From the NCBI GenBank assembly GCA_003560665.1, contig PWKK01000029.1, positions 1 through 42,917 of the forward strand: a DNA stretch of 42,917 bases. The letters run 5' to 3'. Shown in pieces: positions 18,508-42,801 of the stretch. Within the stretch, counting starts at the first letter, position 1; each line of letters starts with the position of its first letter. The DNA comes from Candidatus Nealsoniibacteriota bacterium (GTDB taxonomy: Bacteria; Patescibacteriota; Minisyncoccia; Minisyncoccales; PWPS01). The position numbers and the translations under genes are program-made. The notes beneath the pieces were generated by a model. It did not search any database, was not told the DNA's origin, and worked only from the letters and a program-made list of their open reading frames with translations.

Positions 18508-18553
18508 GCCCTTTTGCATGCTCTTAGAGCGTAAAAGGGCTTTTGTTTTTTAT
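18508..18553 (+). terminator. Strong intrinsic terminator
   Basis: GCCCTTTT (18508-18515) pairs with AAAAGGGC (18533-18540). The interior forms a second small hairpin GCTC-TTA-GAGC (18520-18530). The stem is followed by TTTTGTTTTTTAT. It separates the acidic-protein gene from the GerMN gene. Confidence 0.85.
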
Positions 18554-18560
18554 CTAAATA

Positions 18561-18569
18561 TGGTATTCT
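18561..18569 (+). promoter_or_regulatory. Extended -10 promoter of GerMN gene 1
   Basis: TGG followed by TATTCT, immediately after the terminator. It places transcription start near 18576, 17 bases before the ATG at 18593, and it explains why upstream in-frame starts (18518, 18560) should be discounted. Confidence 0.45.
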
Positions 18570-18592
18570 CGTTGGTAGAGATTGGCAGAGAA

Positions 18593-19633
18593 ATGTCTAA
18601 AATTCGTAAAATAATAATTATCGGAAGTAGCATCTGTGGAACGATTGCTCTAACTGTTCTTTTTATTTCTCTAGGGGAAGAGTTTTTTCCGAGAGAGGAT
18701 GTTCCAACAATGAGAGAGGGTGGTGTTATCGCTGAAAGTTGGATAAGAAACTTTTCTCCCACATACACTCTTTCCGGAAAAGATATCTGGATTACAAACA
18801 GCGAAGAGATTGAGAGGGGAGAGTATGAGTTTGTTTTTTCGTTTATAACCGAAAGCCCTGAATACGGCACGCACGAAAATGAGATGAAGGTTAGAACAAA
18901 AAACACGGAGGTGGTAAGTGCGATTACTAATGGTATTTTCGATGAAATCAGCGGCAATTATCTAGAAAAAGAAGAAACAGTTGATCTTTATTTTGTAATT
19001 GAAGAAGAAGAGGAAAGAAGCATTCGTGCGGTAGAAAGATCAATTTCTGTTTCGGCGGTGGAAAATATCGAAGAAGTACTTCTCGCAGAGCTTTTCAAAG
19101 GACCGAGCGTAGAAGAAAAAGAAGCGGGTTATCTTACCTTTATTGAGGATGCAACAAGGATTTTTTCGTTTAGAGTTGAGAACGGAACTGCCTTTATCGA
19201 GCTTAGTACCCCTTTTGACCAGCAACCGGAAATTGCTGCAGAACAGATAAAGCGAACTCTTCTTCAGATAGATGGTGTCAGTGAAGTGAGAGCTCCGGAA
19301 AGAAGAAGGAGGGTTACTCTTGAAATAGAAGGAGTGCCGGAAGATTTTCTCTTTACAGAAGATTTAGACGAAGGATCAGAGGGAGTAGATGTAAGGTATT
19401 TACAGATTGTTTTAAACGCTGATCCTGAGACAATGGTTGCTCAGCAAGGGCCGGGATCTCCCGGCGAAGAGGTTGAGTCGTTCGGATCATCAACAACTCA
19501 CGCAGTGATGGCATTTCAAAGAAAGTATGACGATGAAATACTGAAGCCTGCAGGATTGATTTTAAGCACGGGGATTGTTGATGAGCACACAAGAGATAAA
19601 CTTAATTCTATTTTAGAAGAAAGTAGGTGGTAG
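18593..19633 (+). CDS. Membrane-anchored GerMN and peptidoglycan-binding protein
   Basis: A 346-residue envelope protein. After a signal anchor (residues about 6-25) comes an N-terminal domain (about 40-130) built around AESWIRNFSPTY, YEFVFSF and VVSAITNGIFDE, which is also present in the next gene. A GerMN domain follows (about 155-245): LLAELFKGPSVEEKEAGYLT, then FRVENGTAFIELSTPF and IKRTLLQIDGVSEV. The C-terminus (about 265-340) is a PG_binding_1-like domain with VDVRYLQIVLN...THAVMAFQRKY. GerMN domains are known from spore germination proteins GerM and from the lipoprotein LpqB, yet occur widely outside spore formers. No catalytic residues are apparent; a cell-wall scaffold role is inference. 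The start at 18593 follows the extended -10 and a weak purine-rich site. Confidence 0.82.
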   Translation: MSKIRKIIIIGSSICGTIALTVLFISLGEEFFPREDVPTMREGGVIAESWIRNFSPTYTLSGKDIWITNSEEIERGEYEFVFSFITESPEYGTHENEMKVRTKNTEVVSAITNGIFDEISGNYLEKEETVDLYFVIEEEEERSIRAVERSISVSAVENIEEVLLAELFKGPSVEEKEAGYLTFIEDATRIFSFRVENGTAFIELSTPFDQQPEIAAEQIKRTLLQIDGVSEVRAPERRRRVTLEIEGVPEDFLFTEDLDEGSEGVDVRYLQIVLNADPETMVAQQGPGSPGEEVESFGSSTTHAVMAFQRKYDDEILKPAGLILSTGIVDEHTRDKLNSILEESRW

Positions 19634-19634
19634 C

Positions 19635-19649
19635 AAGGGGAAACCCCTT
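19635..19649 (+). other. Small GC hairpin between the GerMN genes
   Basis: AAGGGG (19635-19640) and CCCCTT (19644-19649) form a 6-bp stem with a 3-base loop, directly after the stop codon of the first GerMN gene and five bases before the AAAAGGTCGA motif. It lacks a T-run, so it is more likely a transcript-protecting or processing hairpin than a terminator. Confidence 0.45.
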
Positions 19650-19653
19650 ATAT

Positions 19654-19663
19654 AAAAGGTCGA
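19654..19663 (+). promoter_or_regulatory. Shared leader motif AAAAGGTCGA, copy 3
   Basis: Identical ten-mer to copies 2 and 4, with 27-28 bases between it and the ATG at 19691. No convincing separate promoter is seen, so this copy may lie inside a longer transcript from the upstream GerMN gene. Confidence 0.5.
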
Positions 19664-19690
19664 ACTATTAATCAGTTTTAATTATGTATT

Positions 19691-20482
19691 ATGATTAACA
19701 AATTATTAATTGGAATCGTACTTGTAGTCGTTGTTGCCTTGATCGGGTTCTTCATTTCTACTTTAGATATGCCTGAGCCTCTCGACGACGACGAAGTTGA
19801 AGAGTATGTTAATATCGCTGAAGAGTGGATTCGTGAAAATGCAAAAACTTTTACCGAAAGAGGGGGATCTCAACTAGAACACATTAGAACAGTCGAGTTA
19901 GAGGAGGGGGTATACGAGATAGCTTTTGAATTTGAAGCTGCTTTCGCCGGATACGGACCGGTAGATGAAGATGAAATGGCTGCACAAGTGATTACTCCAC
20001 ACACCGTAGTGGTAATAGTGGAGGATGGAGAAGTGGTCAGCGTTATTACAGATGAGGAGTATGACGAAATGGAAGGGAGAGAGGTCGAAGCAGTGGAGGA
20101 AATAGATGAAGATATGGTTACAATAGATGTTTATTTCGTAACAGTAGAAGATGGTATGGAAGGAGTTAGTGCCGTAACAAGAGAGTTTCCGGTGCCTCAA
20201 GACATAAAAGTGTATGCTTTAAATGAGTTACTGGAAGGACCGACCAGTGAAGAAGAGGCGGAAGGGTACTCAACCGCAATAGACGAAGAAACGACACTTA
20301 ATTCCCTTTCTATCGAGGAAGGAGTCGCTTATGCAGATTTTAGTGCAGAGCTGGATGCCTCCGGATCTGCAACCGTAATGATGATTCGTGATCAGATTGA
20401 GAGGACGCTTCTTCAGTTTGAAACAGTAGATGAGGTTGTGATATCTATTGAAGGAGAAACAGAAGAAATCTTACAGCCCTAA
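19691..20482 (+). CDS. Membrane-anchored GerMN-domain protein, second paralogue
   Basis: A 263-residue, strongly acidic paralogue of the preceding protein. It has a signal anchor (residues about 4-24), the same N-terminal domain (about 35-125: AEEWIRENAKTF, YEIAFEFEAAFAGYG, VVSVITDEEYDE) and a GerMN domain (about 155-255: YALNELLEGPTSEEEAEGYSTAI, then LSIEEGVAYADFSAEL and IERTLLQFETVDEV). It lacks the peptidoglycan-binding C-terminal domain. The pair looks like a tandem duplication that diverged in its C-terminal end. It carries the GGTCG leader and is closed by a strong terminator. Function is unknown beyond an extracytoplasmic location. Confidence 0.8.
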   Translation: MINKLLIGIVLVVVVALIGFFISTLDMPEPLDDDEVEEYVNIAEEWIRENAKTFTERGGSQLEHIRTVELEEGVYEIAFEFEAAFAGYGPVDEDEMAAQVITPHTVVVIVEDGEVVSVITDEEYDEMEGREVEAVEEIDEDMVTIDVYFVTVEDGMEGVSAVTREFPVPQDIKVYALNELLEGPTSEEEAEGYSTAIDEETTLNSLSIEEGVAYADFSAELDASGSATVMMIRDQIERTLLQFETVDEVVISIEGETEEILQP

Positions 20483-33974: not shown

Positions 33975-34008
33975 AAACACAGAAGCTTGTACTTCTTTGT
34001 TTTTTTTG
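33975..34008 (+). terminator. Terminator of division cluster
   Basis: AAACA-c-AGAAG (33975-33985) pairs with CTTCT-t-TGTTT (33992-34002) with one internal mismatch and a 6-base loop, and the right arm runs into TTTTTTG. It separates ftsI and the Mur-like gene from the tRNA-Glu unit. Confidence 0.75.
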
Positions 34009-34033
34009 TATTATTTTATACAGTTGTAGACAT

Positions 34034-34109
34034 GGCCCCATCGTCTAGTGGCTTAGGACGCCGGGTTCTCAGTCCGGTAACACGGGTTCAAATCCCGTTG
34101 GGGTCACCA
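34034..34109 (+). tRNA. tRNA-Glu (anticodon CUC)
   Basis: A full cloverleaf. Acceptor GGCCCCA (34034-34040) pairs with TGGGGTC (34099-34105) with one G-U. D-stem GTCT/GGAC (43-46 with 56-59). Anticodon stem CCGGG/TCCGG with loop TTCTCAG, giving anticodon CTC at 34068-34070, which reads GAG. T-stem ACGGG/CCCGT with loop TTCAAAT. Discriminator A at 34106 and an encoded CCA at 34107-34109. The final A of CCA is also the A of the ATG of the permease gene, so tRNA and mRNA share a base. Confidence 0.93.
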
Positions 34110-35221
34110 TGAAAATTTTATACGGTATATCAATTCTTGCAGGAACAATAATCGGAGCAGGTCTTTTTTCGTTGCCTTATATTACTTCGGTAGTTGGTAT
34201 CGTGGTGATGCTCGGATACATTTTTTTTATAGGAGGAGTTTCTATTTTAGTTCATTATTTTTTAGGAGAGGTTTGTTTGAAAACTCCTGATTTTTTGCGT
34301 TTACCCGGCTTTGCCAAATATCATCTCGGCAAAAATGCACAAAAGATCGCCTACGTTTCCGGTATCTTAGGACTTCTTGGTGCAATTTTGGCCTACCTTA
34401 TTTTAGGAGGGGAGTTTTTGACGGCTCTTTTGGCTCCTGTTTTCGGAGGGGGAGTAGTGCAGTATACAACAATCTACTTTGTGCTTTCCTCTCTTTTCAT
34501 CTATTCCGGGATTAGGGCAATTTCAAAATTAGAATTTTTCGGAATTATTGTTTTTCTTGTTTTTTTATTGATTACCTTTATCCGTGGATTTGAGGAGATC
34601 GCAATTGACAATCTTTTTTTTATGCGAGAAGGGGAGTTTGATATTTTTCTTCCTTACGGAGCTCTCTTGTTTGCTCTTTGGGGCGGAGCTCTCGTCCCGG
34701 AAATTGAAGAAACTTTGTGTTTGGGGAAAGAAAGAAGAAAGCTTTTAAAAATTATACCAATCGGGATAATTCTTTCTCTCTTTATTTCTCTCTTTTTCGT
34801 TGTCATTGTGCTTGGAATTACCGGGGAACACACGACCAGAGAGGCTCTTGTCGGTCTTGAGAGTTACTTGGGCAACAGTATCGCCTCTTTGATGCTTGTT
34901 TTCGGTTTACTGGTTATTTTTACCTCTTTGGTGACCATTGGGCTTACGGTAAAGAAAATCCTCTGGTATGACTTAAAAATACAAAAAGATGTTTCTTGGG
35001 CGATTACCTGTATGATTCCCTTTATCCTTTTCCTAGTAGGAGTAAAGGACTTTATCATGGTTATCGGAATAGTTGGTGCAACGATGATTGCTGTAGATGC
35101 AATTCTTATTCTATTGATGTACGAAAAGATAAAAGAAAAGAAGGTTCGACTCATCACTTATCCTTTGATTTTTCTCTTCATTTTGGGTATTATTTACGAA
35201 ATTGTTTATTTTTTCGTGTAA
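34109..35221 (+). CDS. Amino acid permease (APC/HAAAP-like)
   Basis: A 370-residue integral membrane transporter with about eleven helices and almost no loops. The first helix holds ILAGTIIGAGLFSLPY (about residues 9-24), the substrate-binding GxG motif of amino acid/polyamine/organocation carriers, close to the aromatic amino acid (HAAAP) group. A second landmark is LPYGALLFALWGGALVPEIEE (about 180-200). It imports an amino acid, probably by ion coupling; the substrate is unknown. The ATG begins on the last base of tRNA-Glu and no other start codon precedes the first helix, so the two share a transcript and compete for one base. The next gene overlaps its stop as TAATG. Confidence 0.85.
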   Translation: MKILYGISILAGTIIGAGLFSLPYITSVVGIVVMLGYIFFIGGVSILVHYFLGEVCLKTPDFLRLPGFAKYHLGKNAQKIAYVSGILGLLGAILAYLILGGEFLTALLAPVFGGGVVQYTTIYFVLSSLFIYSGIRAISKLEFFGIIVFLVFLLITFIRGFEEIAIDNLFFMREGEFDIFLPYGALLFALWGGALVPEIEETLCLGKERRKLLKIIPIGIILSLFISLFFVVIVLGITGEHTTREALVGLESYLGNSIASLMLVFGLLVIFTSLVTIGLTVKKILWYDLKIQKDVSWAITCMIPFILFLVGVKDFIMVIGIVGATMIAVDAILILLMYEKIKEKKVRLITYPLIFLFILGIIYEIVYFFV

Positions 35222-36162
35222 TGTTTTTTAATGTTGTAATTTTTCTTTTCTCTTGCTTTTTAATTATTTTTGCAAGCAGGATTATTATTGATGCGTTGTA
35301 CCGTCTTGCGTGCCGTTTGTGCTGGAAAGAATTTATTGTTGCTTTTTTTGCTGCTTCCGTAGGAGCGGTTATACCAGAGCTTTTCATTGGAGTGAGAGCA
35401 GCGCTGAAAGGTGTCCCAGAGTTGGCCTTGGGCAGCATTATTGGTCAAAATATTATCCTTTTTACGTTATCGGTTGCAATTTGTACATTTATTTTAAAAG
35501 AGATTGTCGTTGAGAGCAGAACTGTAAGGGCGGGAGCAGCATTTTCACTTTTCGCTGTTACTCTTCCCTTTATCCTTCTCTGGGATGGGGTGTTAAGCAG
35601 AATTGATGGAGTGATTCTCATTGCGGCATGCTTTTTCTATATCTACTGGCTTTTTTCTGAAAAAGATCATTTTTTAAAGAAGTATGAAGGAGTCTCTTTA
35701 AAATCATCTGTTCCAAAAGATATTTTGACTGTTTTTTTCGGATTTCTTTTTGTAGTTCTTAGCGCGGAGGGAATAATTTATTCGGCACAGAACATGAGTA
35801 TTCATCTTGGAATCCCACTTGCTATTTTTGGAATTTTTGTTGTTGGAATGGGAGTTGCTCTCCCGGAGACATTTTTTTCTGTTGCTCTTGCTAGCAGAGG
35901 GCACTCGTGGATGATTCTTGGGGGCCTTCTCGGTGCTATTTCTCTTTCTGCAACTCTTGTTTTAGGAATTGTGGCGGTTATTAGTCCCATTGAAGTTGTT
36001 GATTTTTCTTCTCTTCGTGTTGCTCAATTTTTCTTGATTTCCGCAGGATTCTTTCTTTTTCTTTTTGTGAGGACGAACAACAAGATTACGAAAAAAGAAG
36101 CATTTTTTCTGCTTGGAGTATATCTTCTTTTCCTCTTGTTTGAATTCATAATTCTTGCCTAA
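35221..36162 (+). CDS. Sodium/calcium exchanger-family protein
   Basis: A 313-residue membrane protein with about ten helices and two inverted alpha repeats, as in CaCA-type cation exchangers. Alpha-1 is SVGAVIPELFIGVRAALKG followed by ALGSIIGQN (residues about 42-75). Alpha-2 is GMGVALPETFFSVALASRG followed by LGGLLGA (about 207-240). Both retain the ion-binding Pro-Glu pair, although the usual GTSLPE is AVIPE in the first. The ions moved (Na+, Ca2+, H+ or K+) are not certain. Start at 35221: the ATG overlaps the stop of the permease (TAATG), typical of translational coupling. A far upstream in-frame ATG (34996) lies within the permease gene and is discounted. Confidence 0.85.
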   Translation: MFFNVVIFLFSCFLIIFASRIIIDALYRLACRLCWKEFIVAFFAASVGAVIPELFIGVRAALKGVPELALGSIIGQNIILFTLSVAICTFILKEIVVESRTVRAGAAFSLFAVTLPFILLWDGVLSRIDGVILIAACFFYIYWLFSEKDHFLKKYEGVSLKSSVPKDILTVFFGFLFVVLSAEGIIYSAQNMSIHLGIPLAIFGIFVVGMGVALPETFFSVALASRGHSWMILGGLLGAISLSATLVLGIVAVISPIEVVDFSSLRVAQFFLISAGFFLFLFVRTNNKITKKEAFFLLGVYLLFLLFEFIILA

Positions 36163-42730: not shown

Positions 42731-42801
42731 TGCCGGGTGGTGTAATGGTAACACGGTTGGTTTTGGTCCAATTAATCTAGGTTCGAGTCCTAGCCCGGCA
42801 A
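42731..42801 (+). tRNA. tRNA-Gln (anticodon UUG)
   Basis: A full cloverleaf. Acceptor TGCCGGG (42731-42737) pairs with CCCGGCA (42794-42800), with the U1-A72 pair typical of glutamine tRNAs. D-stem GTGT/ACAC. Anticodon stem GTTGG/CCAAT with loop TTTTGGT, anticodon TTG at 42763-42765. T-stem CTAGG/CCTAG with loop TTCGAGT. The discriminator is A (42801). CCA is not encoded (the next bases are CAG), unlike tRNA-Glu, so a CCA-adding enzyme is needed. Confidence 0.93.

Follow-up and report, generated by a model that had tools for sequence, protein, structure and literature searches.

In a 42,917-nt stretch of DNA from a Candidatus Nealsoniibacteriota bacterium (assembly GCA_003560665.1, contig PWKK01000029.1; the whole stretch is termed the window), the first base of a permease start codon is at the same time the last base of the tRNA-Glu gene directly upstream. 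We confirm that this one-base overlap is real. It probably reflects genome packing of a conserved tRNA-Glu(CUC)-permease pair and no dedicated regulatory device. The host genome of the window is 679 kb in size (termed G000, the window being its contig C29).

The permease start codon lies inside the encoded CCA of tRNA-Glu(CUC)

The features of the locus are as follows.

34034-34109, forward strand: tRNA-Glu(CTC) with a complete acceptor stem, CCA included (ARAGORN; Rfam RF00005, 58.2 bits)
34106, forward strand: discriminator base A73 (end of the Rfam model; G1-C72 pairing by reading)
34107-34109, forward strand: encoded CCA, i.e. C74, C75 and A76 (sequence and ARAGORN)
34109-34111, forward strand: permease ATG, whose A34109 is common to tRNA A76 (open reading frame list; start aligned with relatives)
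34109-35221, forward strand: Trp/Tyr-type amino acid permease, 370 aa (PF03222, E 8.7e-17; PF01490, E 3.9e-7)
35221-36162, forward strand: Na/Ca exchanger-type gene, the next gene 3' of the permease (PF01699, E 3.9e-34)

A first-pass annotation of the window had described a complete tRNA-Glu cloverleaf with discriminator A, a CCA at 34107-34109 and a permease ATG at 34109, all of which is borne out by ARAGORN, RF00005 and the open reading frame list. The RF00005 match, which is independent of ARAGORN, covers 34034-34106 and scores 58.2 bits against a gathering cut-off of 29, which places the gene among the tRNAs; its anticodon is found at 34068-34070. The contrast drawn in that annotation with the tRNA-Gln of the same window also holds, since the latter, at 42731, ends without CCA (GCAAC followed by AGT).

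The permease start is well placed: at the alignment position of the M in MKxLYG, an ATG is found in each of the six genus members whose locus is readable, as well as in the genera g3 and g4. Upstream of the ATG the frame contains only a stop followed by WLRTPGSQSGNTGSNPVGVT, with no ATG, GTG or TTG back to the TAG in the D-loop. A start inside the tRNA upstream of 34109, a possibility raised in the first-pass annotation, is therefore ruled out. In the 3' direction the next in-frame start is a TTG at 34172 which, by our reading, is within the first membrane helix (GISILAGTIIGAGLFSLPY), and we thus agree that no alternative start precedes this helix.

Over residues 2-345 the permease matches PF03222 with 61.7 bits against a curated cut-off of 22. 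Judged from its sequence, it is a membrane protein of the Trp/Tyr family, with a substrate predicted by family. Homologues are present in 88 of 100 genomes. Moreover, the permease stop codon shares one base with the ATG (35221) of the Na/Ca exchanger-type gene (TAATG at 35219-35223), which points to tight packing like that at the tRNA/permease junction. Elsewhere in the window, at 18518-20482, two adjoining proteins have similar C-terminal regions ('ERTLLQ' or 'KRTLLQ', then a VxEV motif), and these neighbours probably represent a tandem duplication.

An overlap of this kind could also arise if a spacer of 16-100 nt had been dropped during contig assembly, and it is true that the species is represented by one genome and that its named close relatives are metagenome-assembled. 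However, the junction is found mid-contig between an undamaged tRNA and an undamaged open reading frame, no repeat is apparent there by our reading, and junctions of this type are seen in many other genomes. We consider an artefact hardly credible.

The gene pair is kept in relatives with a spacer

The tRNA-Glu(CTC)-permease pair, on one strand and with the tRNA directly upstream, is found in six genus members and in three genomes of the genera g3 and g4, the near relatives being Candidatus Nealsonbacteria metagenome-assembled genomes. The spacers within family f1 (genera g1, g3 and g4) measure 16, 17, 19, 46, 63, 64, 71, 81 and 100 nt, and within this family the start overlap is confined to the window's genome. 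In the genus g2 the spacers are 152-824 nt long, and by reading there are terminator-like hairpins 3' of the tRNA at two loci (L013 and L030). The encoded CCA varies among the relatives as well: it is present at L002, L008 and L013, and the others have C74 followed by another base. In family f3, one genome (G017) keeps the pair with a gap of 44-47 nt, and in another (G122), whose permease shows 46% protein identity, the permease ATG is found at tRNA position 75 (GTCAC followed by ATG). Position 75 in G122 is most simply explained as an independent case, and apart from it the overlap is not kept in relatives. The first-pass annotation had proposed to look for the overlap in relatives and had named a spaced tRNA and permease as the sign of an accident; spacers of 16-100 nt in the genus, g3 and g4 are just this.

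The same annotation had suggested that each transcript yields either the tRNA or the permease, so that transport would be coupled to tRNA processing. Such a switch could draw on the folded tRNA, whose acceptor stem (centroid fold) hides the sequence to within 4 nt of the ATG, and on trimming to A76, which takes away the start codon. However, the relatives are spaced, the Trp/Tyr substrate family (PF03222) offers no reason for a link to glutamate, the genome has a second tRNA-Glu gene (UUC, also with CCA), and CCATG occurs at the chance level (see below). The proposed coupling is thus not supported and we regard it as very improbable, even though G122, in which the permease ATG is again inside the tRNA tail, speaks against its full dismissal.

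Expression signals at the locus

A simple scan for hexamer pairs gave the following best candidate.

33987-34014, forward strand: candidate weak promoter (TTGTAC-16-TATTAT), 19 nt upstream of the tRNA

This pair is below the threshold of the consensus scanner, and neither a consensus promoter nor a terminator was found at the locus. In relatives the same tRNA is preceded by TTTACA-17-TANNAT at a distance of 11-12 nt (L008-L010) or by TTTACA-16-TATAAT at 19 nt (L013). We tentatively infer a promoter just upstream of the tRNA-Glu in the window; since no consensus promoter is seen just upstream, co-transcription of the tRNA and the permease is weakly supported there.

Shine-Dalgarno-like motifs are present at four of the 27 inspected window genes, if the GGGG in the acceptor stem upstream of the permease is counted. 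We do not find this GGGG convincing as the Shine-Dalgarno sequence of the permease, because the window genes mostly lack one. Most of the 27 starts have A/T-rich upstream sequences, often with a T just before the ATG. Finally, a special structure at the junction was rejected, as the precursor folds no better than shuffled sequences (z 0.30).

CCATG strings after tRNAs occur at the chance rate

In 247 genomes of the order, a T-arm pattern followed by CCA was matched 1548 times. In 93 of these (6.0%) the CCA is followed by TG, and TG also accounts for 6.0% of the dinucleotides 5-60 nt downstream. The CCATG string is thus found after tRNAs at the chance rate, with no enrichment, and an overabundance is ruled out by the identity of observed and expected values. 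About 10 of the 42 tRNAs of the window's own genome encode CCA, which corresponds to approximately 0.6 expected CCATG per genome. An open reading frame of at least 100 aa follows CCATG in 14 of 30 sampled cases. Since about half of the sampled strings lead such a frame, real start codons within CCA are fairly common in genomes of the order.

We also counted ATGs at position 75, directly after C74. This pattern has 180 matches, and 15 of 30 sampled ones lead an open reading frame of at least 100 aa. The control, in which the ATG is three bases further on, has 50 matches, with such frames in 6 of 30. The numbers of matches, 180 and 50, are near the expectation from base composition, given that the position-75 pattern specifies one base fewer; the informative part is the higher share of real open reading frames at position 75, in samples that are small and non-random. 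Moreover, 126 tRNAs were sampled from six stretches of the order without regard to what comes after each tRNA. Among them, four gene starts lie 0-2 nt after N73, compared to 1.2 per 3-nt bin further on (P ~0.04), a weak excess. In the own genome, and likewise in the stretches taken from other genomes, the distances from tRNA to ATG form an unbroken series from 0-2 nt upward.

Tail starts precede unrelated genes

Ribosomal protein L19 follows tRNA-Val with a CCATG junction in G109 and G111. In three species of one genus, CCATG opens the gene of an FAD-type oxidoreductase (proteins 65-82% identical) behind a tRNA with a GCC-type anticodon arm, by reading a tRNA-Gly. In different families it opens the gene of a large membrane protein that follows tRNA-Glu(UUC) and is 47% identical between them. 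For the tRNA-Glu(UUC)-membrane protein pair, the ATG is at position 75/76 in approximately 12 of 28 loci with the upstream tRNA, over about six families, and the remaining loci have spacers of 5-700 nt. At L113, L114, L120-L122, L124-L126, L128 and L131-L133, tRNA-Glu(UUC) is followed by this conserved membrane protein of approximately 500 aa, with its ATG at tRNA position 75 or 76. An RluD-like gene after tRNA-Val(GAC) often starts at position 75. Starts at position 75/76 precede unrelated core genes, namely those for L19 and for RluD-like, RecG-like, DnaG-like, ValS-like and RNase J-like proteins, all names which come from reading of the N-termini.

This recurrence fits packing against a fixed wall, and release of nearly leaderless mRNAs is compatible with it as well. 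Two observations count against packing: the tRNA-Glu(UUC) pair is found at 75/76 over about six families, which is more regular than free drift of spacers would suggest, and the tRNA-Glu(CTC)-permease pair abuts again in family f3 (G122).

Processing of tRNA 3' ends and the fate of the start codon

A search with the RNase Z model TIGR02651 gave no match above the curated cut-off in any of 20 genomes, the own genome included, compared to matches in all 14 control genomes, above the cut-off in nine. Matches below the cut-off are present in the own genome and in relatives, and a divergent RNase Z could escape the model. Of two weak MBL hits in the own genome, a frame of 308 aa resembles the C-terminal domain of ComEC, and one of 624 aa looks RNase J-like, judging from its size only. 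A CCA-adding enzyme is found in 18 of the 20 genomes, the own genome among them, and a search for RNase PH domains in the own genome returned only a PNPase-like two-domain protein. In many relatives the genes for PNPase and the CCA-adding enzyme are at most about 3 kb apart, and in the own genome three tRNA genes are found around them (G000:C1:18119-22649).

According to a study on Propionibacterium acnes, this bacterium has no obvious tRNase Z, a cut is made between the two Cs of the encoded CCA, and repair by a nucleotidyltransferase is proposed (PMC3848588). Here too, tRNase Z was not found and a CCA-adding enzyme is present, with the proviso that the model might not recognise a divergent RNase Z. 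Moreover, among tRNAs of the own genome and the order (L031-L060 and L203-L302), C74 is encoded in 92 of 102 tRNAs without CCA, compared to 19% C overall, and 61 of the 102 have C74-A75. Tail cuts after C74 would account for such a bias, which suggests a 3' processing route that retains C74. Cytidines directly 3' of the discriminator inhibit many RNase Z enzymes (PMC7479834).

The cut site bears on two further claims of the earlier annotation, namely that any 3' processing destroys the permease start and that a molecule can give the tRNA or the permease, not both. The first is correct for ends made at or after A76 but not for cuts further upstream: a cut after N73 leaves CCAUG and one between C74 and C75 leaves CAUG, and in these cases both products are possible. 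The either/or logic is therefore too strong, because the outcome depends on the cut site.

Packing of the gene pair would have proceeded by loss of the spacer in the window species until the start codon met the encoded CCA, which would be the last place it could occupy without harm to the tRNA body. Both the tRNA and the permease would most likely derive from transcription that is initiated a short way upstream of the tRNA. RNase P would make the tRNA 5' end, and the 3' end would probably be made without RNase Z, through an endonuclease cut at the tail that the CCA-adding enzyme would then repair. With a cut after A73, or with one that separates C74 from C75, the resulting CCAUG or CAUG piece might undergo translation as a nearly leaderless mRNA. 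This would suit a genome in which most genes have no Shine-Dalgarno site. If the cut fell downstream and the end was trimmed to A76, the molecule would give the tRNA only, and the permease would be made from uncut molecules. Either way, the overlap is probably tolerated.

A more far-reaching explanation is tRNA-punctuated leaderless expression, in which tail cuts after C74 (or N73) make mRNA 5' ends and starts at position 75/76 are selected. The bias for C74, the higher share of real open reading frames at position 75, the excess of starts 0-2 nt after N73, the many tRNA-Glu(UUC)-membrane protein loci with a start at 75/76 and the cleavage between the two Cs reported for P. acnes all argue for it. 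However, the raw counts of CATG and CCATG are near chance, starts would pile up in the same way if genes were packed against a wall, and other members of the window's own family have a spacer in the pair. On balance we find it unlikely that position 75/76 has been selected in this way. Equally doubtful is the broader proposal that an order without detectable RNase Z cuts its tails at C74 and rebuilds them with the CCA-adding enzyme, and that this cut also yields nearly leaderless mRNAs, the AUGs of many genes at 75/76 being a bacterial tRNA punctuation.

Comparison with known systems

In E. coli, thrT-tufB is a bacterial tRNA-mRNA cotranscript, and its spacer lets processing cut without touching the start codon. 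The window locus resembles it in that a protein gene lies behind a tRNA in the same direction and the two probably share a transcript. It also resembles the short -1/-4 overlaps of co-directional bacterial genes (PMC10666635), in that a one-base overlap results from tight packing, and the permease/exchanger junction is itself an overlap of this kind. In the case of the tRNA/permease junction, in contrast, the upstream partner is a tRNA, so that there is no termination-reinitiation coupling. With the pre-tRNAs of P. acnes the locus has in common that tRNase Z was not found, that a CCA-adding enzyme is present and that some tRNAs encode CCA; the accessible part of that study does not mention a start codon in CCA (PMC3848588).

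Among the open-access titles listed in literature searches, none reports that the start codon of a bacterial gene sits inside an encoded CCA. Taken alone, the tRNA-Glu/permease locus is a curiosity of compact genomes. Together, the loci raise the question of how tRNA 3' ends are made in bacteria seemingly without RNase Z, and whether the same cuts also make mRNA 5' ends. For annotators, they show that start codons can sit inside an encoded CCA, where pipelines may shift the start or trim the tRNA.

A further comparison is with tRNA punctuation in mitochondria, in which excision of tRNAs frees leaderless mRNAs. The mitochondrial tRNAs do not encode CCA, and the cut after N73 is made by RNase Z/ELAC2. 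Here, by contrast, the ATG overlaps an encoded CCA, RNase Z went undetected and single gene pairs are concerned. Common to both is a start codon placed at the very 3' end of a tRNA, which leaves a leader no space: at the window locus the spacer is zero, and the A of the permease ATG is A76 of the tRNA.
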